Below, piece by piece: positions 25,065-34,777 of a stretch of DNA of 64,000 bases. Every line of letters starts with the position of its first letter. Position 1 is the first letter of the stretch. Under the pieces are notes generated by a model, which ran no database searches, was not told where the DNA came from, and worked only from the letters and a program-made list of their open reading frames with translations. The DNA lies in NCBI RefSeq assembly GCF_002735925.1, contig NZ_PEDL01000015.1:1-64000 (forward strand). The letters are read 5' to 3'. The position numbers were made by a program, and so were the translations under genes. Origin of the DNA: Sporanaerobium hydrogeniformans. GTDB taxonomy: Bacteria; Bacillota; Clostridia; Lachnospirales; Cellulosilyticaceae.

Positions 25065-25508
25065 ATGAAAAACTTAGATTTTATAGAGAAGTTAATGGTT
25101 ATACATCATTTTACAAAGGGGTTATTTAAATATTCCTCCATAAAAGAAATAGAGCCCAATCTAAATGAAACACACGCCAAGATTTTACTATTTGTATATA
25201 AGCACAGCCAAAGACAAATGAGTAAAATTAATGAGTATATAGGACTTCAAAAAGGAGCTTTTACAACATCTGTTGATACTTTAATTGAGAAGGGATATAT
25301 GTTAAAAATCAAGGATGAAAAGGATAAAAGATCTATGAACTTAGAGTTAACAGAAAAAGGCGTAGAAGTAGCAGATAAGTTAAAAGATAATTTATACAAA
25401 AATATAAATGACATGTTTGATACGACACAGGGAAAAGAGAAAGAAGAAATAAATAATGCAGTAGAATTATTATCAAGATTTTGTATAAACAATAAAAAAA
25501 AGCATTAA
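25065..25508 (+). CDS. MarR-family transcriptional regulator
   Basis: This 147-residue protein has the MarR winged helix: HAKILLFVYKH, the recognition helix region KGAFTTSVDTLIEKGYM and the wing KDEKDKRSMNLELTEKG. Such dimers repress transport genes until a toxic ligand binds. It lies 13 bases before the MATE gene in the same operon. Ribosome site GAGGTGAAGG precedes ATG 25065. Confidence 0.9.
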   Translation: MKNLDFIEKLMVIHHFTKGLFKYSSIKEIEPNLNETHAKILLFVYKHSQRQMSKINEYIGLQKGAFTTSVDTLIEKGYMLKIKDEKDKRSMNLELTEKGVEVADKLKDNLYKNINDMFDTTQGKEKEEINNAVELLSRFCINNKKKH

Positions 25509-25521
25509 ATAGGAGGGTCAA

Positions 25522-26889
25522 ATGGAAGATAAAAAGATATTTATTTTAAAAGATGAAAGTGTTTCAAAAGCTATATTAAAGTTATCTATACCTATGGTTA
25601 TGGGGATGATGGTTCAAGTTTTATATAATTTAGTAGATACGTACTTTATAGGCATGCTAAACGATTCAAATCAATTAGCAGCAGCTAATATAGCACTTCC
25701 TGTGTTCATGATGCTTATGGCTATAGCGGGGATTGTGGGTTCAGGTGCAGCTTCATATATATCAAGATGTCTTGGTAATAAGGATTATGAGGAAGCGAAT
25801 AAGACTATTTCAATAGCAACCGGTATTTTAATTATAATAAGTATGCTTGTTATGATAGGGGGAGGATTAATGTCTCCGAATCTTGCAAAAGGTTTAGGAG
25901 CAAATGAAGCTACATTTGATGATACTTATAGCTATATAGTTATAATGTTTATAGGTTCAATACCTGTTATGTGCAGCTATGCACTAGGGCAGCTCCTTCG
26001 CTCAGAGGGGAATATAATGCAGTCAGTTATAGGGCTTGCACTAGGTACTGTTGTTAATATAGTACTTGATCCTATTCTTATCTTTGGGTTAAATATGGAG
26101 ATAGCTGGTGCGGCCATAGCTACTGTAATTGGGCAAGCCTCAACACTATTCTATTTTGCTTATGCTTATTTTAAAGGTAAGACTACCTTAAAAATAAGTC
26201 TAAGACAATTTAAATATGATCAAAAGATATTTAAAGAAATATTTATAATTGGTGTTCCAGCCTCATTCAATCAAATGTTAATGGGAGTAGCTACTGTTGT
26301 TGCTAATAACATAGCTGTTGGCTATGGTAATCTAACTGTTGCTGGTATGGGAGTTGCGATGAAAATAATGACTATAGGTACCTTTGTATTTATGGGTTTC
26401 TCTGCGGGATGTCAGCCTTTAGTTGGATATAACTATGGATGCGGTAACATTTCTAGGGTTAAGGAGATTATCAAAAAAGGAATAATCATAACCTCTATCA
26501 TTGGCCTGAGCTTAGCTTTAATCTTTGGTGTATTTGCTAGTTCTTTAATAGGATTATTTACAAGTGATATTGAAGTTATAGATAAAGGAGCTACCATACT
26601 TAGAGCCTTAATCGTTTCACTTCCTTTTGTTGGTGGTCAGATGATATCTACAACATCAGCTCAGTCAATGGGTAAGGCTATGGTGGCCTTTATCTTATCT
26701 ATATCAAGACAAGGAATACTTTATATGCCTCTTTTAATTCTACTGAACAAACTATTCAGCTTTTCAGGATTTGTTTATGCACAACCTATAACTGATATTA
26801 TTATGATAGTATTTTCATCTATGCTATTATATAAGGTTATGCCAAAGGATAGTATTAAAGAAATTTCTACAACAGAGGAATTTGTTTAA
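25522..26889 (+). CDS. MATE-family multidrug/cation efflux transporter
   Basis: This 455-residue protein has twelve membrane segments in two homologous halves. The first half carries the MATE pattern KLSIPMVMGMMVQVLYNLVD near residue 18 and the second carries GVPASFNQMLMG near 244. GCQPLVGYNYG is typical of the family. It exports drugs or metabolites in exchange for Na+ or H+, and it is probably repressed by the MarR protein encoded just before it. Confidence 0.93.
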   Translation: MEDKKIFILKDESVSKAILKLSIPMVMGMMVQVLYNLVDTYFIGMLNDSNQLAAANIALPVFMMLMAIAGIVGSGAASYISRCLGNKDYEEANKTISIATGILIIISMLVMIGGGLMSPNLAKGLGANEATFDDTYSYIVIMFIGSIPVMCSYALGQLLRSEGNIMQSVIGLALGTVVNIVLDPILIFGLNMEIAGAAIATVIGQASTLFYFAYAYFKGKTTLKISLRQFKYDQKIFKEIFIIGVPASFNQMLMGVATVVANNIAVGYGNLTVAGMGVAMKIMTIGTFVFMGFSAGCQPLVGYNYGCGNISRVKEIIKKGIIITSIIGLSLALIFGVFASSLIGLFTSDIEVIDKGATILRALIVSLPFVGGQMISTTSAQSMGKAMVAFILSISRQGILYMPLLILLNKLFSFSGFVYAQPITDIIMIVFSSMLLYKVMPKDSIKEISTTEEFV

Positions 26890-27021
26890 AAGCTCAAAAA
26901 GACAACTGCTTTAATAAAAGGATAGGGTTTTAAAAGAGAATTTGCAAAAATAGATTGTATTTAGTATCCCTATTATCCGATAATAGTAGAGATTAAAAAA
27001 TATACAGGAGAAGGGGACATT

Positions 27022-28167
27022 ATGAATATTTCACTAGAGAGTATTTTAAAACATCCTATTTTTGAATCTGCTCGTTGTTTAGCCGGAAGTCAGGGAATGA
27101 ATCGGCACCTCAAAAGAGTTTCTGTATTTGACTGTCCATTTTCTAAAGAAGAAAGCTACGACTCACTTATAGAAGAGGGAGACTTTTTCCTTTCTTGCCT
27201 TGAACAATTTGATAATAATAAGGGGCAGATTATAGAATTCTTACAGCAACTTATTAACAGAGGAAGTAGTGGGCTTTGTATTGTTACTAATAGTGAGAAG
27301 CCTCTCCTTTCAGAAGAAGAAAAACAAGTTTGTGAAGCCCATAACTTTCCTGTTATTGCTTTTACTAACAATATTCCTTATGCTGTTCTTTTAGATGTTA
27401 TTAATAAGCAAATTATCCACCAACAACTTAATCTGATTAATGAGTATAAATTAGAGCAGCTTCTTCGTTCAGGAGATGGGAAGGAGAAATTACAGCTGCT
27501 TTATAACATAAATCCTCATATTAAGTCTTATGTTTGTATTTTACTTTTAACAGGTCCTATGAATTCTGCTATTTCATTAGCACATGTTAAAAAGAGTTTT
27601 ATGAATAAAGAGGATGATCTCTTTATTGAAGGGCAGGCTTATAGGCTACTTGTTATTAGCAGTACAGATAGTAAGCAGCTAGAGCTAAAAGAAAGGCTAT
27701 TAACAGAAACCATTACTCAAAACTTTAGAGAGATCCATTTAGGAATTAGTCAAATTTATGATAAACGGGAAATCAACTATGCTTTGCAAGAAGCACAAAA
27801 TGCCCTTATGTTAAGTAAGTTATTTGAGAAGCCATTTATTCGTTATTCACCTTTATCCACTCTACCTTTATTAGTAACCTTAAGAGACTCCCATGAACTA
27901 CTTGCTTTTTATAATAGTTATGTGGAAACCCTTAGGATACAGGCATCTGACAATAATCTTGAGGAGCTATTACATACGGTTGAAGTCTATGTGGATAGGG
28001 GAGGAGATTATAAACGGGCGGCAGAACAAATACGACAACATGAAAATACTATTCGTTATCGGATAAATAAAGTGAAGGCCTATCTTAATCTAGAGCATGA
28101 TACAATTGAATTTCATCAAATAATCGCTTTAGCAGTACAAGCTCAAAAATTGTTAAAGCAAAGATGA
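27022..28167 (+). CDS. PucR-family transcriptional regulator
   Basis: This 381-residue protein has the PucR N-terminal domain (residues 1-130), a middle GGDEF-like region and a C-terminal helix-turn-helix of the PucR type (RQHENTIRYRINKVKAYL near 345-362). PucR proteins control purine catabolism and similar nitrogen-scavenging genes. The CodB-like permease gene starts 103 bases downstream, so it is the likely target. Ribosome site GGAGAAGGGG precedes ATG 27022. Confidence 0.9.
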   Translation: MNISLESILKHPIFESARCLAGSQGMNRHLKRVSVFDCPFSKEESYDSLIEEGDFFLSCLEQFDNNKGQIIEFLQQLINRGSSGLCIVTNSEKPLLSEEEKQVCEAHNFPVIAFTNNIPYAVLLDVINKQIIHQQLNLINEYKLEQLLRSGDGKEKLQLLYNINPHIKSYVCILLLTGPMNSAISLAHVKKSFMNKEDDLFIEGQAYRLLVISSTDSKQLELKERLLTETITQNFREIHLGISQIYDKREINYALQEAQNALMLSKLFEKPFIRYSPLSTLPLLVTLRDSHELLAFYNSYVETLRIQASDNNLEELLHTVEVYVDRGGDYKRAAEQIRQHENTIRYRINKVKAYLNLEHDTIEFHQIIALAVQAQKLLKQR

Positions 28168-28270
28168 AAAATGTATAAAAATACACTCTAATTTTTAAAA
28201 AATCTACAAACATATCCTTCTAAAGCTGTAATATACTATTTTTATCAAACAATAGGGAGGATTTTGAGTA

Positions 28271-29560
28271 ATGAGTGAAGCAAATAAAAATACATTTGAA
28301 ACGACTACATTAGAAGCGGTTCCTTTATCTGAAAGGAAGAGTTGGATTAATGTAGCGTATATTCAAGCTGGGATTATGATTTGTGTTCCAAGCCTGATGT
28401 TGGGGGGGATTTTAGCAGAAGGGATGTCTATAAGTAAAGCGATTTGGGCAGGTATAGTGGGTTATACACTTGTCACTATTCTTTTTTGTTTAATTGGAAT
28501 CATTGGAAGTGATTTAGGAGTTCCTACTTGCATTGTTGCTTGTTCTGCCTTTGGGAAGAAGGGGGCACGTTTTATTGTTAGTACGCTATTAATGCTTTCT
28601 ATGATTGGGTGGTTTGCTGTTCAGACTAGTGTCTGTGGAAGTGCCTTTTCTAACTTACTAAAAGAGTTTACCGGCATCAACTTTTCACAGGAATTTTCAA
28701 TGCTTATTTGGGGACTTATTATGCTTATAACGGCAGTATATGGTATTAATGCTTTGGAAAAATTAAATAAGTTAGCCGTTCCTGCTTTGTTTGTAGTGAC
28801 GATTATTGGCTGTTTTATGGCGCTTAAGAGTTATGGTACAGCTAATCTTTTTGTAAATCCAGCAGAGGAAACAATGAGCTTTATAGATGGTATTGTTCTT
28901 ACTGTTAGCTTTATGGCAGCAGGAGCACTTTGTGCGCCAGATTTTACAAGGTATCAAAAAACACGTAAGGATACTATTCTTTCTTCTTCTATTGGTGTGA
29001 TGCCAGCAGGGATTCTTATGCTCATTATGGGAGCAGTTATGACACGTATTGCCAGTGAGTATGATATTACTTTAGTTTTCTGCCAAATAGGTATTCCTAT
29101 TATGGGTATGTTAGTTCTTATTATTGCTACTTGGACTACGAACACTACCAATGCTTATTCAGCGGGTTTAGATGCTGTTTCTATTTTTAATTTAAAAGAA
29201 AATAAAAGGGCGCTGGCTACTATGTTAGCAGGTGTTATTGGTACATTGGCAGCCGTTATTGGCATGGCTACCCATTTTGAAGCGTTTTTATATATTTTAG
29301 GAGATATTCTCTTACCTATTATGGGGATTTTTTTAGCAGATTATTGGGTTTTAGCAAAAGGAAAAGCTGCAAGCTATAATGTTAGAACAAACTGGAATTG
29401 GAATGGAAATGGTTTAGTAGCTTGGATTTGTGGGGTATTAACCATTAAGTGTATTCCTGTAGGTATTCCTTTTATTCAAGGGATTGCAGTTGCTTTTATA
29501 GTTTTCATTGTTATGAGCAAGACAGTGGGTACAAAGACCTACGAAGCCCTTACAAAATAA
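28271..29560 (+). CDS. NCS1 cytosine/purine permease, CodB-like
   Basis: This 429-residue protein has twelve membrane segments with the NCS1 pattern: WINVAYIQAGIMICVPSLMLGG near residue 25, GSDLGVPTCIVACSAFG near 78, and APDFTRYQK near 221. These Na+- or H+-coupled carriers import cytosine, hydantoins, purines or pyridine-like bases. With the PucR gene upstream, a nitrogen heterocycle is likely, but which one cannot be told. Ribosome site AGGGAGGA precedes ATG 28271. Confidence 0.88.
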   Translation: MSEANKNTFETTTLEAVPLSERKSWINVAYIQAGIMICVPSLMLGGILAEGMSISKAIWAGIVGYTLVTILFCLIGIIGSDLGVPTCIVACSAFGKKGARFIVSTLLMLSMIGWFAVQTSVCGSAFSNLLKEFTGINFSQEFSMLIWGLIMLITAVYGINALEKLNKLAVPALFVVTIIGCFMALKSYGTANLFVNPAEETMSFIDGIVLTVSFMAAGALCAPDFTRYQKTRKDTILSSSIGVMPAGILMLIMGAVMTRIASEYDITLVFCQIGIPIMGMLVLIIATWTTNTTNAYSAGLDAVSIFNLKENKRALATMLAGVIGTLAAVIGMATHFEAFLYILGDILLPIMGIFLADYWVLAKGKAASYNVRTNWNWNGNGLVAWICGVLTIKCIPVGIPFIQGIAVAFIVFIVMSKTVGTKTYEALTK

Positions 29561-29599
29561 GTAGTTGTTCTTATTTTTAATAAAATAACCACAGATAAT

Positions 29600-29660
29600 A
29601 AAGGCCATGTAGGACTAGAAAGGATTTTTCTAGTTTTACATGGTCTTTATTAGGATATAA
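29600..29660 (+). terminator. Long hairpin after the permease gene
   Basis: The sequence around 29604-29619 pairs with 29628-29643 with G-U pairs, and the outer AATAAAGG/TCTTTATT arms extend it. The U-tail is poor, so it may stabilise the mRNA end or terminate weakly. Confidence 0.55.
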
Positions 29661-29781
29661 TGCTATTATAATAAGTGATAATTCTGTATATAACAAATCT
29701 TAAAAAATGTGACTTATTAAAGAGAGAGGAGGGGCTTATTTAGGTATTATCATTCAAAGCGTCTTAGAGGATATAGAGTGG

Positions 29782-30693
29782 TTGGGACGCATACCAGAAG
29801 TACTTATTATGCCTCTATTTCTAAGTATTATTTATACGATTTTAGTAGGAATAGGTACAGCTATTGGTGCGTTATTTGGATATGCTTTTGGAAGGGAGAC
29901 TAAGCAGACAATGTCATGGATAAAAAAAGGTATTGCAGGGATATTGGGGATTTTACTTATGTGGGTAGTTTTATGGGGAGCCAATGATTTACTGGGTAAT
30001 CCTATCACAGCTACTTTGGCTACTCATAAAGTTAAAGCGTATGTAGCTGAGAAATATCCAGAGCTGGATTTAGAGGTTGGGAAGGCCAGTTATAATTTTA
30101 AATTTAAGACCTATGGGGTGAGTGTAAGTTCAAAAACGAGTATAGATACTCACTTTACCATAGAGTATAAAAAAGGAAGAATAAAATATGATGAGTATGA
30201 AAGCTATGTACAAGGCAAGTTTAATACAAGACGTAGGTTAGAAGAAGCTTGTACTAAAGAAGTCATTTCACTTTTATCAAAAATACCTCAGTTAGAGAAC
30301 AATACGGCTATGGTAAACTTTGTAGATCCTGAGAGATTAGAGGAGAGTGAGAGGGAAGCATTAGAAAAAAATATTGTATTAGACATGCCCTTTAATAAAG
30401 AAGTAACTTCTAGTATGCTTATTAGTATTAGAGCAGAATTAAAGGATATAACTCCTCGAAATCTAGAAAATATATTAAAAGAATCCCATTCTCTTTTAAA
30501 GAGAGAGGGGTATGAATTTAAAAATTATGGATTGTTTTCTGACACCCAAGAAGCATTAGTGATGATAGATAATGTAACTTCGGAAGATATGGCAAACGGT
30601 CAATTACTCAAGGCATTAGAGGAAGCAAATCAAAACGTAAATAGTGAAGGATCTTCTGGAATGAGTGCGATGATTCGGAGAAAAGAAAAGTAA
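29782..30693 (+). CDS. YfjL-like membrane protein, start uncertain
   Basis: From TTG 29782 the protein has 303 residues and two membrane segments near 11-36 and 48-70. The later part (WVVLWGANDLLGNPITATLA and EVGKASYNFKF) resembles YfjL-type proteins of Clostridia, which lack a known function. The frame is open from 29713 and carries plausible residues before 29782. A strong GAGGAGGGG site sits at 29726-29734 with no ATG, GTG or TTG at the right distance, so the real start may be a rare codon. A terminator follows at 30701. Confidence 0.55.
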   Translation: MGRIPEVLIMPLFLSIIYTILVGIGTAIGALFGYAFGRETKQTMSWIKKGIAGILGILLMWVVLWGANDLLGNPITATLATHKVKAYVAEKYPELDLEVGKASYNFKFKTYGVSVSSKTSIDTHFTIEYKKGRIKYDEYESYVQGKFNTRRRLEEACTKEVISLLSKIPQLENNTAMVNFVDPERLEESEREALEKNIVLDMPFNKEVTSSMLISIRAELKDITPRNLENILKESHSLLKREGYEFKNYGLFSDTQEALVMIDNVTSEDMANGQLLKALEEANQNVNSEGSSGMSAMIRRKEK

Positions 30694-30700
30694 GAAACAT

Positions 30701-30730
30701 AAAAAGGCATCCTAGGAGGGTGCCTTTTTA
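30701..30730. terminator. Intrinsic terminator, two-way
   Basis: AAAAAGGCA pairs with TGCCTTTTT (30701-30709 with 30721-30729), inner bases pair further, and five Ts end each arm. It separates the convergent genes at 29782 and 30741. Confidence 0.85.
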
Positions 30731-30740
30731 GTAGCTTAAG

Positions 30741-31772
30741 CTATTTAACAGGAGAAAGGGCTAATAATGTTTCATCTACGATTTTACCTTCCTTCATGAT
30801 CAGCTTATTGTCTAGCCAAACAGAAGAATTTAAACAAATACCATCACAGTGAGATTTTGCATCTTGACCTATTGGAGGTGCATCAAAAGGACTTACATAA
30901 CCAATTCCCCATTCTGTACATCCCCATACACGCTCATCTTCTACAATATTTCCTGTTAAAATAGCTCCTGGATTAAAACCATAAGCAATATGTGCCATTT
31001 TAAACATACCTTCATCATCAAAAGATTTTAAGAAACGTTCAAACTCAGTAGCTTCTGTACCTCCTGAAATCTGGGTAATGATACTGTTTTCTACCTTTAA
31101 TGCAATAGGTGTATGAGGTACGTGACCAAAAGGTGGTGTCACACAACCATCAAAAACGATCGTTCCTTGGATACTACCAAACTTGGGCACAACATTAATT
31201 TGCCCTGTAAGCATATGAATAGCTGGATAAGATGCATCTCCACAGTCACATGCTACAAAATGATTGGGGTCAATTTCAAAGCTTACATCACAGCCTGCTG
31301 GAGTAGTGACACGCATTGTATGAGCTGCTTTAGTCATTTCCGTCACTTTTTGCATAAAAATTTTTAATTGAGAGGTTTCTACTTTTCCTACTGTACGAAT
31401 AAGAAGCTCTGGAGTGAAATCTACTAAACACATATAGCGTAATTTCTTATTTTCTGCCTCTGCCCTTTCAAAAGGCGTTGAATATAATAACCACTGATGA
31501 TTAAATTCTATCCATACATCAGCATGAACAAGTGCTCCAGCTAATGCATCAATCGGTAAGTTAGGGTCAGCAGCTTTTCCTACTCCAGAAGGTGTTGGGA
31601 TAGTAATGACCATGGGAATAGCCCCTGCTGCATAGGCACTAGAAGCAACTGCCTCAACAACTTGCTCGTTAGAGCAAGTATCAGCAGTAATGATGACAGT
31701 TTCTCCTGATTTAACTGCGAACATCTCTTTAATTAATTTATCTGCTGCATGTTGTAATTCATAATGTAACAT
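30741..31772 (-). CDS. NicX / M29-like metal-dependent enzyme (annotated as leucyl aminopeptidase in relatives)
   Basis: This protein has 343 residues from ATG 31772 with AAGGAG upstream; an earlier ATG at 31853 has none. It belongs to the M29-like superfamily that includes NicX, a 2,5-dihydroxypyridine dioxygenase. Possible metal ligands are His261 (AHIAYGFNP), His308 and Asp310 (SHCDG), spaced like the known NicX triad. The length also matches NicX better than M29 aminopeptidases of about 410 residues. It is divergent from the M20 gene and near a CodB-like permease. Peptide or ring cleavage are both possible; the reaction is not proved. Confidence 0.72.
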   Translation of the reverse strand: MLHYELQHAADKLIKEMFAVKSGETVIITADTCSNEQVVEAVASSAYAAGAIPMVITIPTPSGVGKAADPNLPIDALAGALVHADVWIEFNHQWLLYSTPFERAEAENKKLRYMCLVDFTPELLIRTVGKVETSQLKIFMQKVTEMTKAAHTMRVTTPAGCDVSFEIDPNHFVACDCGDASYPAIHMLTGQINVVPKFGSIQGTIVFDGCVTPPFGHVPHTPIALKVENSIITQISGGTEATEFERFLKSFDDEGMFKMAHIAYGFNPGAILTGNIVEDERVWGCTEWGIGYVSPFDAPPIGQDAKSHCDGICLNSSVWLDNKLIMKEGKIVDETLLALSPVK

Positions 31773-31937
31773 ATCGTTATTCTCCTTATTTTTTAAGTTA
31801 ACTAGCTTTAAGTATATCAGAGGTACAACTGATATATTTTGTATTAGTAACAAATTTTAGGAGTTATTTTAATAATATTTATAAGCAAAACCTAGGAGCT
31901 ATCAAGTTATAATAAGCATAAAATAAGGAGGTATAGC

Positions 31938-33353
31938 ATGTTTAACAATTTTATAGGTAACCATACACAAGAAATGATTGAAAACTTAATGCAGCTTATT
32001 AATATTCCAACTGTTATGGGGGCAAAGGAAGAGAAGGCTCCCTTTGGAAGAAATATAGCACAAGGATTAGACTATATACTAAGTTTAGCAGAAAAATGGG
32101 GGATGCAGGTTAAAAATTATGAGGGGTATGCAGGCGAAATTACTATAGGAACAGGAGACTACAGGGTGGGTATCCTTTGTCATATAGATGTTGTAGATGC
32201 TGGAGAAGGATGGGAAACCCCTCCCTTTAAGGCAACTATAAAGGATGAAAAAATTTATGGACGAGGCGCTATAGATGATAAAGGGCCACTTATCAGTTGT
32301 TTATATGTCATGAAATATTTAAATGACCACCAACTTATTCCACCTTCAACTTCTTTACGAATGATTATCGGTACCAATGAAGAAGAGAATTGGGAGGGGA
32401 TTCAATATTATGTTGCCCATGCTCCTATTCTTCCTCATGTCTCTATTGTTCCAGATGGTAATTTTCCAGCAATCTGTTATGAAAAAGGACTACTTGATTT
32501 TAATTTAATCTCTAAACACCCAAGTGACGCTCGTTTACCTATTCAGCTCATTTCTATAGAGGGGGGCAATGGTAGGAATGTTGTTCCAGGTAAATGTATG
32601 TGTCAGCTTAAAGTAAGTTCTGAAGTTTTTTTAAAAGAACGCATTGAAGAACGTTTAGAAGCATTGAAACATACTCAGATAAGCTATGAACAAGGATTAC
32701 TAACCATTGAGACATCAGGTAAAAGTACGCATTGTATGACACCTGAAAAAGGGCGTAATGCCATTGCTTTATTGATGCATGCTTTATATGAACTAGGTCC
32801 TCTTTTTTCTCACCATGAAATGGTAAAGAGCTTTAAGCACTATATTGGCAAAGAATATAATGGGCAGTCGTATGGGTGTGGTTTTGAAGATGCTTTATCA
32901 GGTAAATTAACTTTTAATATTGGTAAGATTTATTTAGATAAAGATAGCCTTATTATGGAAGCTAATCTACGTTATCCTGTTTCTACCCCTTATGAAGTAG
33001 TTAAAGAAGCTGTAGAGCAAACATCCTTAAAAGCAGGCTTTGAGTATAATCAAATAGATCATCTAGCTGCTATTTGTATGGAAAAGGATGCACCACTTAT
33101 GACCTGCCTCTTAAAAGCTTATCGAATGATTACAGGGGATGAAATCAGTGAACCTTTATCTATAGGGGGTGCAACCTATGCAAGAGCCATTCCAAACGCC
33201 GTAGCTTTTGGTCCCTTACAACCCTATGAAGAGGAGTTAGCACATGAAGCGAATGAATATTTGAGCATCGACAGTTTATTTAAAATGACTGAGATATATG
33301 AAAGGGCACTAACTCTTCTTTTAAATGAACCTATTGATAGGGCAAATCTTTAA
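31938..33353 (+). CDS. M20-family metallopeptidase, PepV/Sapep-type
   Basis: This 471-residue cytoplasmic hydrolase has the M20 dizinc site: CHIDVVDAGEGW with His82 and Asp84, IDDKGPL with Asp113, and GTNEEENWEG with the general-base Glu near 148. The layout with a long lid domain is that of the Sapep/PepV dipeptidases. Ribosome site AAGGAGGT precedes ATG 31938. It shares a 165-bp divergent promoter region with the NicX-like gene, so the two may act on the same compound. Confidence 0.9.
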   Translation: MFNNFIGNHTQEMIENLMQLINIPTVMGAKEEKAPFGRNIAQGLDYILSLAEKWGMQVKNYEGYAGEITIGTGDYRVGILCHIDVVDAGEGWETPPFKATIKDEKIYGRGAIDDKGPLISCLYVMKYLNDHQLIPPSTSLRMIIGTNEEENWEGIQYYVAHAPILPHVSIVPDGNFPAICYEKGLLDFNLISKHPSDARLPIQLISIEGGNGRNVVPGKCMCQLKVSSEVFLKERIEERLEALKHTQISYEQGLLTIETSGKSTHCMTPEKGRNAIALLMHALYELGPLFSHHEMVKSFKHYIGKEYNGQSYGCGFEDALSGKLTFNIGKIYLDKDSLIMEANLRYPVSTPYEVVKEAVEQTSLKAGFEYNQIDHLAAICMEKDAPLMTCLLKAYRMITGDEISEPLSIGGATYARAIPNAVAFGPLQPYEEELAHEANEYLSIDSLFKMTEIYERALTLLLNEPIDRANL

Positions 33354-33379
33354 CCTCTTTAGGTATTTTAGAGAGTAGC

Positions 33380-33417
33380 AAAAAAGACATCCTTTTATCG
33401 TAAAGGCTGTCTTTTTA
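33380..33417. terminator. Intrinsic terminator, two-way
   Basis: AAAAAGACA at 33381-33389 pairs with TGTCTTTTT at 33409-33416, with an inner CCTTTTA/TAAAGG hairpin. It separates the convergent M20 and mscL genes. Confidence 0.82.
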
Positions 33418-33442
33418 CATACCGCTATTAAAGTTATCTCTA

Positions 33443-33877
33443 TTAAACTATATCACCTGTACAATAAGGACACTTAGTAGCATCAATATGAATATCTGAA
33501 ATGCAATGAGGGCATTTTTTCGTTGTTGGAACTACTATTGTATTTTCAGATTTTCTAAGTTTATTCATCCATTGCACTAATAAGAATACAACAAATGCCA
33601 TAATAATAAAATCAATAACACCTGTTATAAATAAGCCATAATTTATTGTTGCAGTTTCTGCACTTTTAGCTGCTTCTAATGTTGCATATTTTTTTCCATC
33701 AAGTGCTATAAACAAGTTTGTAAAATCAATTTTATTTGTTAGGATACTTAATACCGGCATGATAATATCCTTTACAAGTGAATTAACTATTCCGCTAAAA
33801 GCACCTCCAATAATAATACCTATTGCAAGATCAATCATATTTCCTTTTAACGCAAATTTCTTGAATTCTTTTAACAT
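33443..33877 (-). CDS. mscL: Large-conductance mechanosensitive channel with a C-terminal zinc ribbon
   Basis: This protein has 144 residues from ATG 33877 with GAGGAGGA upstream. Residues 1-40 (KEFKKFALKGNMIDLAIGI) and 85-105 are the two membrane helices of MscL, the osmotic safety valve. The C-terminus carries CPHCISDIHIDATKCPYC, two CPxC knuckles like a zinc ribbon, which replace the plain helical tail of the Escherichia coli protein. I recall such tails in other Clostridia MscL proteins. Confidence 0.92.
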   Translation of the reverse strand: MLKEFKKFALKGNMIDLAIGIIIGGAFSGIVNSLVKDIIMPVLSILTNKIDFTNLFIALDGKKYATLEAAKSAETATINYGLFITGVIDFIIMAFVVFLLVQWMNKLRKSENTIVVPTTKKCPHCISDIHIDATKCPYCTGDIV

Positions 33878-34252
33878 TTCGCTATTCCTCCTCATAGATG
33901 ATTTTAATCTTCCCTCAACAATAATATACTGTTTTAATCCATCTATCAATATTATTTAATCAAAAAGCAATGCAGTATAAAGAAGAAAAAACATAATATT
34001 GATAAGGGTACTATAAGAATGACAAGCTAAGGTAATGTGTCCATCTAAAGGTAGATATTGACAAGCGGAGTTATAAGTACATAGATTGTTTAACCTATAC
34101 TCATACTAAAAGAAAAAGATGCTAACACATACTTTGACTTTTTGAGGATAAGCGTTCAAAAAGGTTTGAAAAGATAGTAAATGTAAAGAGAATTATATCT
34201 ATCAGAAATGGATTTATGTACTAAGAAATAAATTAAAAAAGGGGATATTTTG
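33878..34252. other. Intergenic stretch, no gene seen
   Basis: 375 bases separate mscL from the Rad52-like gene. Weak AT-rich promoter-like strings are present, but no open frame, tRNA or stable hairpin was found. Confidence 0.4.
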
Positions 34253-34777
34253 ATGCAATTTAGAAAGTTAGAACCTAAAGAGATTGAGTGTAGGGTGCAA
34301 TTAGTTAAAGACAATGGACTCGTTTTATTACTCTATAAAGATGCAAGATGTGATATGAATATACTTGATGAAACGGTAGGAGCAGATAATTGGCAACGGC
34401 GCCATGAGCTAGTAAACGGAAACCTTTTTTGTAATGTAGGTATACGTTTTGAGCGTAAGGATGGTTTGGGAGAATGGGTTTGGAAACAAGATGTAGGCTC
34501 CGAAAGCAATACAGCGAAAGAAAAGGGGCAAGCAAGTGATAGTTTTAAGAGAGCTTGTTTTAACTGGGGTATAGGAAGAGAGCTATATACAGCACCTTTT
34601 ATATGGATTAGTGCAGTAGATTGTAATATTAAAGAGTATAAAGGCAAAAAAATATGTAATGATAAATTTGCAGTTGAAAAAATAACTTATGACGGATCAG
34701 TTATTGATGGACTATCTATTATTAACCAAACAATAGGCAAGAGAGTATTCTTGCAAAAACCAAAGGGAGATAAGTAA
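34253..34777 (+). CDS. Rad52/Rad22-family single-strand annealing protein (phage-type)
   Basis: This 174-residue protein carries the Rad52/Rad22 pattern: VGADNWQRRHELVNGNLFC, a KQDVGSES turn, and ASDSFKRACFNWGIGREL. Such proteins anneal single-stranded DNA and in bacteria are mostly phage or mobile-element genes. ATG 34253 follows AAAGGGG; a TTG at 34250 is rejected. No recombinase, terminase or integrase is nearby, so it looks like an orphan left by a mobile element or a domesticated gene. Confidence 0.78.
   Translation: MQFRKLEPKEIECRVQLVKDNGLVLLLYKDARCDMNILDETVGADNWQRRHELVNGNLFCNVGIRFERKDGLGEWVWKQDVGSESNTAKEKGQASDSFKRACFNWGIGRELYTAPFIWISAVDCNIKEYKGKKICNDKFAVEKITYDGSVIDGLSIINQTIGKRVFLQKPKGDK

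Follow-up and report, generated by a model that had tools for sequence, protein, structure and literature searches.

The 64,000-nucleotide stretch of Sporanaerobium hydrogeniformans contig NZ_PEDL01000015.1 (assembly GCF_002735925.1) analysed here, hereafter the window, carries within 6.4 kb (27.0–33.4 kb) the genes for a PucR-family regulator, a CodB-like permease of the NCS1 type, a metal enzyme resembling the pyridine-ring dioxygenase NicX, and an M20-family hydrolase (Table 1). These four genes had been singled out in the original prediction, made from the sequence alone, and were confirmed at the places given there; the TTG start proposed for the NicX-like gene (31853) was replaced by an ATG at 31772, which, with AAGGAG upstream, is the most likely start, so that the protein has 343 amino acids and the divergent gap to the M20 gene measures 165 bp. 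The genome (3.74 Mb, 99.66% complete) contains one match each to PF02133 (E 1e-10), PF07905 (E 1e-5) and TIGR01887 (E 1e-60), and all three lie no more than about 4 kb from one close NicX-like gene (E 1e-10). We propose that the four genes form a module for scavenging a cyclic amide, most likely a 2,5-diketopiperazine (cyclic dipeptide), a reading to which we give a probability of roughly 0.45.

Table 1. Genes and intergenic elements of the cluster, in window coordinates
Feature	Position	Strand	Basis
PucR-family transcriptional regulator, likely regulator of the module	27022..28167	+	N-terminal PucR domain, C-terminal HTH_30
NCS1-type CodB-like importer, probably Na+-coupled, for a flat-ring substrate, not cytosine-type	28271..29560	+	PF02133
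Terminator-like hairpin 3' of the permease gene	29603..29645	+	consensus match only
YfjL-like two-domain protein	29782..30693	+	PF25425, PF24911
NicX/M29-fold metal enzyme, proposed cyclic-amide ring-opening hydrolase	30741..31772	-	stop codon 30741-30743
Divergent promoter region of 165 bp separating the NicX-like gene from the M20 gene	31773..31937	.	sequence
PepV/Sapep-type M20 dipeptidase	31938..33353	+	TIGR01887

The NicX-like enzyme scores below the gathering cut-off of the Pfam M29 aminopeptidase family (PF02073; 15.9 bits against 27), has no Pfam family above cut-off, and found no match in NCBIfam or in PHROGs. When the single sequence was searched against the PDB, NicX was the only match below E 0.01 (1.6e-12), and a 49-row profile of the NicX-like family recovered NicX at 8.5e-33 and the M29 peptidase PepS at 5.6e-08. 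The structure model (mean pLDDT 96.0, pTM 0.91) matches NicX (7cup_E) with a Z score of 34.9 and a root-mean-square deviation of 2.9 over 323 residues, the M29 aminopeptidases AmpT, AmpS and PepS with Z scores of 23 to 24.5 (AmpT, 24.5), and crocagin CgnE with a Z score of 15.4. As far as its sequence can tell, the enzyme fits neither NicX nor the M29 peptidases well, though its fold matches both.

The metal site was compared in an alignment of 55 rows, comprising 49 members of the NicX-like family, four paralogues that occupy a place beside NCS1 permeases in other genomes (NCS1-slot paralogues, discussed below), the M29 enzyme of the same genome, and one NicX. Six aligned site residues of the window enzyme are Q191, H261, E280, E287, H308 and D310, and the corresponding columns read Q-H-E-E-H-D in 43 of the 55 rows, Q-H-E-Q-H-D in three, E-E-E-H-H-D in five (the four NCS1-slot paralogues and the genome's own M29 enzyme, a separate protein that scores 550 bits), E-E-K/L-H-H-D in another three, and F-H-R-L-H-D in NicX; Glu and His thus swap places between columns 261 and 287. 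The two metals of M29 enzymes are bound by Glu, Glu, His, His and Asp, a set from which the window enzyme departs in having Q191, H261, E287, H308 and D310 at these positions. The His/His-Asp site that had been remarked on from the sequence alone is real: H308 and D310 are conserved in all 49 aligned members and H261 in 46, and these are the columns in which His265, His318 and Asp320 of NicX align. Glu280 is present in every one of the 46 Q-H rows and in 46 of the 49 members, where NicX has Arg, while Glu287 and Gln191 of the window enzyme are aligned with Leu and Phe of NicX. Glu280 aligns with the Glu of the DE motif, which we take to be the catalytic base of M29 enzymes, and its retention here, with no equivalent in NicX, favours hydrolysis.

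NicX binds Fe(II) through His265, Ser302, His318 and Asp320, Ser302 being essential, and Glu177 and His189 contact its product, according to the structural account consulted (PMC7910607). The alignment is ambiguous around Ser302; the best serine column among positions 284-289 and 291-299 is 294, with Ser in 24 of the 49 members, including Ser294 of the window enzyme. The NicX pocket is partly matched, by Leu96 (43/49), an acid at 176 (37/49; Asp176 in the window enzyme) and His186 (30/49), and Tyr97, present in 45 of 49 members, stands where NicX has His105. Since the pocket is partly NicX-like and the NicX product is bound via Glu177 and His189, binding of a lactam-like ring is plausible. A phylogenetic tree places NicX next to the Q-H rows (support 100/97), with the M29-type rows outside; the Q-H group itself has 92/68, the genome's M29 enzyme and NicX have very long branches, and NicX is represented by one sequence. 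The original prediction had viewed the protein as NicX-like, perhaps with a changed function; in the one tree made, the enzyme groups beside NicX, not inside it. On its aligned residues, its clade may be regarded as intermediate between M29 peptidases, which have two metals, and the oxygenase NicX, which has one iron; the fold is the same and residues of the metal site are exchanged.

These data bear directly on whether the enzyme could belong to a true NicX-like, O2-dependent pathway of pyridine-ring cleavage. NicX is its closest relative in both solved fold and sequence, the three Fe ligands align (H261, H308, D310), residues of the NicX pocket have Leu96 and Asp176/His186 as their counterparts in many members, and Ser294 lies near the Ser302 region. 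We nonetheless consider such a pathway very improbable: no conserved serine counterpart of the essential Ser302 is evident in the alignment, which is ambiguous there (best column 294, 24/49), the genome has no haem-copper oxidase match (cytochrome bd was not searched for), and most of the named relatives, which include Blautia, Oscillibacter, Acetobacterium and several archaea, are clostridia or archaea, Parendozoicomonas excepted. Clostridial and archaeal relatives of this kind are anaerobic in habit, and the source bacterium is probably an anaerobe as well. A hydrolytic rather than an oxygen-using reaction, already preferred in the original prediction, would fit best with the missing haem-copper oxidase match, with Glu280 and Glu287, and with the S-Me-THD, HyuA and M29-type proteins that occupy the slot after the permease in other genomes.

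Two further observations concern NicX-like genes elsewhere. The copy of a Blautia equi metagenome-assembled genome (MAG; L040:4605-5630) has one in-frame stop codon and was excluded from the alignment. Tandem NicX-like pairs beside Opp-type transporters or amino acid permeases occur in archaea and deep-branching bacteria (L073, L075, L076, L079, L080, L086, L092, L099 and others).

The second enzyme had been described as a peptidase-like amidohydrolase of the M20 family and proves to resemble dipeptidases of the PepV type. It scores 395.6 bits against TIGR01887 (cut-off 207.95) and falls just under the cut-off of the NCBIfam PepV equivalog NF005591 (422.3 bits against 435), its solved homologues are the dipeptidase SACOL1801 (3khx, E 3.4e-65) and PepV (1lfw, 6.5e-54), and it retains H82, D84, D113, E148, E149, D173, N214, H265, R345 and H436, the active-site residues of Sapep/PepV dipeptidases. 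In a tree of 36 PepV rows, which includes eleven Sapep-type copies from outside the loci (at most 10 of them paralogues, L157 being the linked copy of L069), the window copy belongs to an NCS1-linked group of eight rows (100/100), seven from loci with NicX-like and NCS1 genes and one (L113) near a contig end beside NCS1. The Blautia genomes represented in this group have further Sapep copies, which lie outside it.

A heterocycle-type importer accompanied by a PucR regulator was likewise borne out. The regulator matches PF07905 (66.1 bits) and HTH_30 (PF13556, 44.4 bits), and the permease matches PF02133 with 133.7 bits (cut-off 23.5), has CodB as its closest solved structure (7qoa, E 3.8e-32), is related to the hydantoin transporter Mhp1 (4d1a, E 1.4e-11), and lies below the CodB equivalog NF008241 (197.6 bits against 326). 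CodB is described as having a Trp/Phe sandwich, a pair of Na2-site threonines, and Gln105, which binds cytosine (PMC9379551). The permease keeps the aromatic sandwich (W114, F214) and the threonines (T289, T290), and the position of Gln105 is taken by Met111, as it is by Met in the six closest linked permeases, which makes cytosine an unlikely substrate. With Gln105 lost, CodB-type cytosine import was set aside.

Conservation of the neighbourhood was examined in the best 78 of 425 matches, chosen by similarity of the NicX-like protein alone and representing 52 clusters at 85% identity; many of these loci end at contig ends. Neighbouring genes were labelled with hidden Markov models built from protein clusters, of which representatives, not every member, were checked against Pfam and NCBIfam (PucR, NCS1, S-Me-THD, racemase, CDOA, CDOB, HyuA, M24, PepT-like, solute-binding protein and ABC parts). 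The PepV label was checked on the window copy, on L114 and, via TIGR01887, in 23 genomes; L087 and L095 are very divergent and doubtful as PepV, and one cluster (c12) is weakly typed. PucR occurs in 23 loci, NCS1 in 11 and PepV in 22 (the two doubtful ones included), where 0.98, 0.61 and 0.51 copies would be expected in an equal amount of DNA. The expectations come from 23 genomes picked after the gene orders of the loci had been seen, and as their densities include the clusters themselves, they overstate chance. Counted over the 52 clusters, the figures are 19, 9 and 14. All four genes co-occur in eight of the 78 loci (L035 to L039, L046, L064, L069), so that the conserved linkage for which the original prediction had called does exist in other genomes. 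The order NicX-PucR-NCS1-PepV is found in three Blautia species, a Roseburia MAG and an Acetobacterium MAG, and PucR-NicX-NCS1-PepV in Lutispora; in Butyricicoccus, PepV and NCS1 oppose NicX in direction, and in L069 the four genes are spread out and the NCS1 gene is of another lineage. Since order and strand vary, from an operon in Blautia to mixed arrangements in Butyricicoccus and the window, the linkage has outlasted rearrangement. At the six closest loci (L035 to L039, L046), the window proteins are 72-74% identical to the linked copies for the enzyme, 56-61% for NCS1, 47-49% for PepV and 32-35% for PucR. In one further genome (G488), NicX-PucR starts one contig (L054) and NCS1-PepV ends another (L113), possibly a single four-gene cluster split by the assembly.

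The window's order was represented by 344 genomes. Two of them have a close NicX-like gene (E 1e-60), and the same two have a close NCS1 gene (at least 59% identity); the second is Blautia schinkii (L037), which puts the window in one order with Blautia. NCS1 matches (E 1e-70) occur in 16 of the 344, the other 14 reaching at most 45% identity, and weaker cut-offs bring in more NicX/M29-like genes within the order (G045, 39%, E 1.6e-59; L140, L141, L147). It might be supposed that the four genes are chance or historical neighbours with unrelated jobs, as there are a YfjL-like gene and a terminator-like hairpin inside the region, PucR is weakly conserved, and the set of four is incomplete in 70 of the 78 loci. 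This is the least credible of the explanations considered and is largely refuted by linkage, the single genomic matches lying side by side in the source genome and all four genes recurring in eight relative loci in several orders and strands.

Other genes recur around NicX-like genes, and they help to narrow the choice of substrate. The 78 loci include S-Me-THD (DUF917) in 35, a member of the Asp/Glu/hydantoin racemase family in 23 and HyuA in six; two subunits of cyclodipeptide oxidase (CDO), CDOA and CDOB, here a nitroreductase-type gene and a DUF6092 gene, respectively, occur in 19 and 14, and together in 14. An Opp-type solute-binding protein is present in 43 loci, and PepT-like (seven) and M24 (six) peptidases occur besides PepV. 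The Opp-type protein and NCS1 are found together in just one locus, while 53 loci have one or both. Two S-Me-THD members that were tested scored 60 to 88 bits against thiohydantoin desulfurase cut-offs of 440 and 450, so desulfurase function should not be transferred to them. As a separate observation, a small cupin and a Gly/Gln-rich lipoprotein-like gene with no Pfam match follow the Opp-NicX-DUF917 operon in L021-L024.

The slot beside the permease was compared across the order. Leaving aside the window's genome and that of Blautia, 14 order genomes bear NCS1, and the twelve of these that were compared have S-Me-THD no more than two genes from the permease in 11 cases, PucR in nine, HyuA in three and a NicX/M29-like enzyme in three. 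The genome G488, to which L054 also belongs, shows the arrangement PepV-racemase-S-Me-THD-NCS1-PucR without a NicX-like enzyme at one place (L114) and combines NCS1, an M29-type enzyme, S-Me-THD and PucR at another (L115). These contents indicate that NicX-like, M29-like, S-Me-THD and HyuA proteins share a context with the importer and the regulator. The NCS1-slot paralogues in L140, L141, L147 and L115 have the M29-type site E-E-E-H-H-D and lie beside S-Me-THD and PucR; this gene context thus harbours a second lineage of enzymes.

The original prediction suggested that the genes could act together on a nitrogen ring or a related amide. The unit itself stands, as an importer, PucR and two metal-hydrolase-like enzymes kept together elsewhere (8/78), and cytosine, nicotinate and purines have become less likely as its targets; an enzyme that groups beside NicX, paired with an M20 dipeptidase, shifts the likely substrate to a cyclic dipeptide or a hydantoin-like cyclic amide. 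Under the reading we favour, the NCS1 symporter would import a flat ring compound, the NicX/M29-fold metal enzyme would open the ring by hydrolysing an amide bond within it, the dipeptide so formed would be cut into amino acids by the PepV-type enzyme, and PucR would turn the module on. We infer a cyclic dipeptide because flat-ring and peptide importers are seldom found together, several peptidase families recur, and both CDO subunits occur in 14 of the 78 loci; a 2,5-diketopiperazine would pass every step, being opened to a dipeptide and then cut by PepV. A study of CDO clusters names PF19585 the CDO B subunit, states that CDO acts on 2,5-diketopiperazines, finds non-CDPS clusters enriched in DUF917 and hydantoin racemase genes, and leans for these to hydantoin- or allantoin-like substrates, that is, to a rival of our reading (PMC11055893).

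That rival, in which a 5-substituted hydantoin or a dihydropyrimidine would be converted by the NicX-like enzyme to an N-carbamoyl amino acid, on which the M20 enzyme would then work as a carbamoylase, is in our judgement rather unlikely, although several lines of evidence suit it: the architecture is that of hyu operons, the hydantoin transporter Mhp1 has the NCS1 fold (4d1a, E 1.4e-11), S-Me-THD, HyuA and racemase-family genes share the context in relatives, and L114 reads PepV-racemase-S-Me-THD-NCS1-PucR. Carbamoylases and allantoate amidohydrolases carry His at the metal ligand equivalent to Asp173, whereas the window M20 enzyme is PepV-like and has Asp there; PepT-like and M24 peptidases recur at the relatives' loci, and there is no racemase-family match among the nine proteins of 25065-34777. 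A hydantoin would thus fit the analogy with hyu operons, but it fits the PepV-type partner with Asp173 less well. More doubtful still would be plain peptide scavenging, with the NicX-like enzyme as an M29-type aminopeptidase acting with the dipeptidase on imported linear peptides. The M29 fold match (AmpT, Z 24.5), the 43 loci with a solute-binding protein of the Opp type and the dipeptidase partner speak for it; set against it are the exchange of three M29-aligned site residues (Glu to Gln, Glu to His, His to Glu), the Pfam M29 score of 15.9 bits against a cut-off of 27, a separate M29 enzyme in the same genome (550 bits), and PucR, NCS1, S-Me-THD and CDO partners that would not be expected for linear peptides.

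Several facts also weigh against the cyclic-dipeptide module. At the eight loci with all four genes, PucR shares 27-35% identity with the window protein in seven cases and aligns with it over 37 residues only in the eighth; the NCS1 proteins of L064 and L069 are just 28-29% identical to the window's. The regulator and some of the importers, therefore, need not be orthologous. PepV is lacking in 56 of the 78 loci, NCS1 in 67 and PucR in 55, and the set is incomplete in 70, some of the loci being cut by contig ends. One carrier (L085), Parendozoicomonas, is neither a clostridium nor an archaeon, and is not known as a strict anaerobe. The roles suggested for H261 and E287 rest on the alignment. 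The source genome has no S-Me-THD match, and no DUF6092/CDOB match, in a search that matched no control genome either, so that CDO and DUF917 are tied to the enzyme through their association with it in other lineages. S-Me-THD as a partner encoded elsewhere in the genome was considered, and none matched. Outside the window, the genome has a partial Hydantoinase_A match (G000:C18:10786-11199, minus strand; 100.2 bits, profile positions 1-142 of 291) in a 674-amino-acid open frame.

A fifth gene, YfjL-like, sits between the permease and NicX-like genes, behind the terminator-like hairpin, and is no recurrent neighbour in the NicX-like loci of relatives. The hairpin has a 20-pair stem with six GC pairs followed by a T-rich tail; five terminator-like sites were found in the region against 3.4 expected. 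The divergent gap contains a perfect 8+8 bp inverted repeat (31813-31836), which was dropped as a shared operator since an equally good repeat arose in 66 of 500 shuffles; in seven relatives that were inspected, the best repeats preceding the NicX-like gene differ from it. With up to two mismatches, TATCAG-N8-CTGATA occurs 10 times in the window against 4.1 expected, the sole exact copy being the repeat in the gap, and a promoter scan was uninformative (20 sites, 27.6 expected). On the upstream side, 25065-26889 (plus strand) encodes a MarR-type regulator and then a MATE exporter; three Blautia loci (L037-L039) have a MATE gene from the same protein cluster downstream of PepV. On the other side, at 34250-34777 (plus strand), is an isolated short gene with a TTG start and a weak Rad52/Rad22 match (22.1 bits, E 1.5e-4).

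Cyclic dipeptides are common in food and among the compounds made by microbes. Among the matches listed in the open-licence literature, none named a set of genes by which they are used anaerobically, which is weak evidence of absence; searches of that literature with terms for S-methyl thiohydantoin desulfurase, diketopiperazine degradation, gut ring-opening and hyu returned nothing, and a search for DUF917 with aminopeptidase or permease gave nothing relevant by title among the matches listed. The module is best seen as one for scavenging a cyclic amide that resembles hydantoin operons in its make-up but would use an unstudied hydrolase to open the ring. A broader proposal, which we put forward tentatively and with less assurance than the module itself, is that the NicX-like family is a new class of cyclic-dipeptide hydrolases, with NicX-PucR-NCS1-PepV as a dedicated pathway of anaerobes and a version with an Opp-type importer, DUF917 and CDO in other Bacillota, deep-branching bacteria and archaea. 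If the cyclic-dipeptide module is correct, genes of Blautia, Oscillibacter, Acetobacterium and several archaea that would be annotated by homology as encoding an aminopeptidase, a dioxygenase and a cytosine permease belong to one pathway. The aligned site offers an explanation, open to testing, of how peptidases with two metals, a dioxygenase with one iron and an intermediate clade of putative hydrolases can share a fold.

The known systems closest to the cluster each resemble it in part. Operons of the hyu type combine an NCS1 transporter (Mhp1/HyuP), a hydantoin racemase, a hydantoinase and an M20 carbamoylase. The window shares with them the succession of an NCS1 importer, putatively for a flat cyclic amide, a proposed ring-opening metal hydrolase and an M20-family hydrolase, and it differs in that the putative ring opener has the NicX/M29 fold, the M20 enzyme is of the PepV type and the regulator is PucR; no hydantoinase or hydantoin racemase Pfam match was found in the nine proteins of 25065-34777, the racemase not having been searched for genome-wide. 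Non-CDPS CDO clusters, as presented in the main text of the study cited above, have DUF917, hydantoin racemases, dipeptide ABC importers and peptidases in common with the NicX-like loci, CDO is reported there in Blautia, Clostridium and Thermococcus, and that main text does not mention 'dioxygenase', 'aminopeptidase', 'M29' or 'PF02073' (PMC11055893). With NicX (7cn3, 7cup) the enzyme shares the fold, the H-H-D metal triad and, in many members, the pocket Leu and acid/His, whereas it has Glu280, Glu287 and Gln191 in place of Arg, Leu and Phe and, as far as the ambiguous alignment of that strand shows, no conserved counterpart of Ser302; the recurrent neighbours differ too (S-Me-THD, Opp-type solute-binding protein, PucR and others), nicotinate-pathway genes not having been searched for. 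It resembles the M29 enzymes AmpT, AmpS and PepS in its fold, the DE-type Glu and the final H-x-D, and departs from them in the exchanged residues Q191, H261 and E287 and in its Pfam score under the cut-off. The M20 enzyme, finally, is like PepV and Sapep over its full length and in its active-site residues, and unlike PepV in scoring just under the equivalog cut-off and in falling within the NCS1-linked group.

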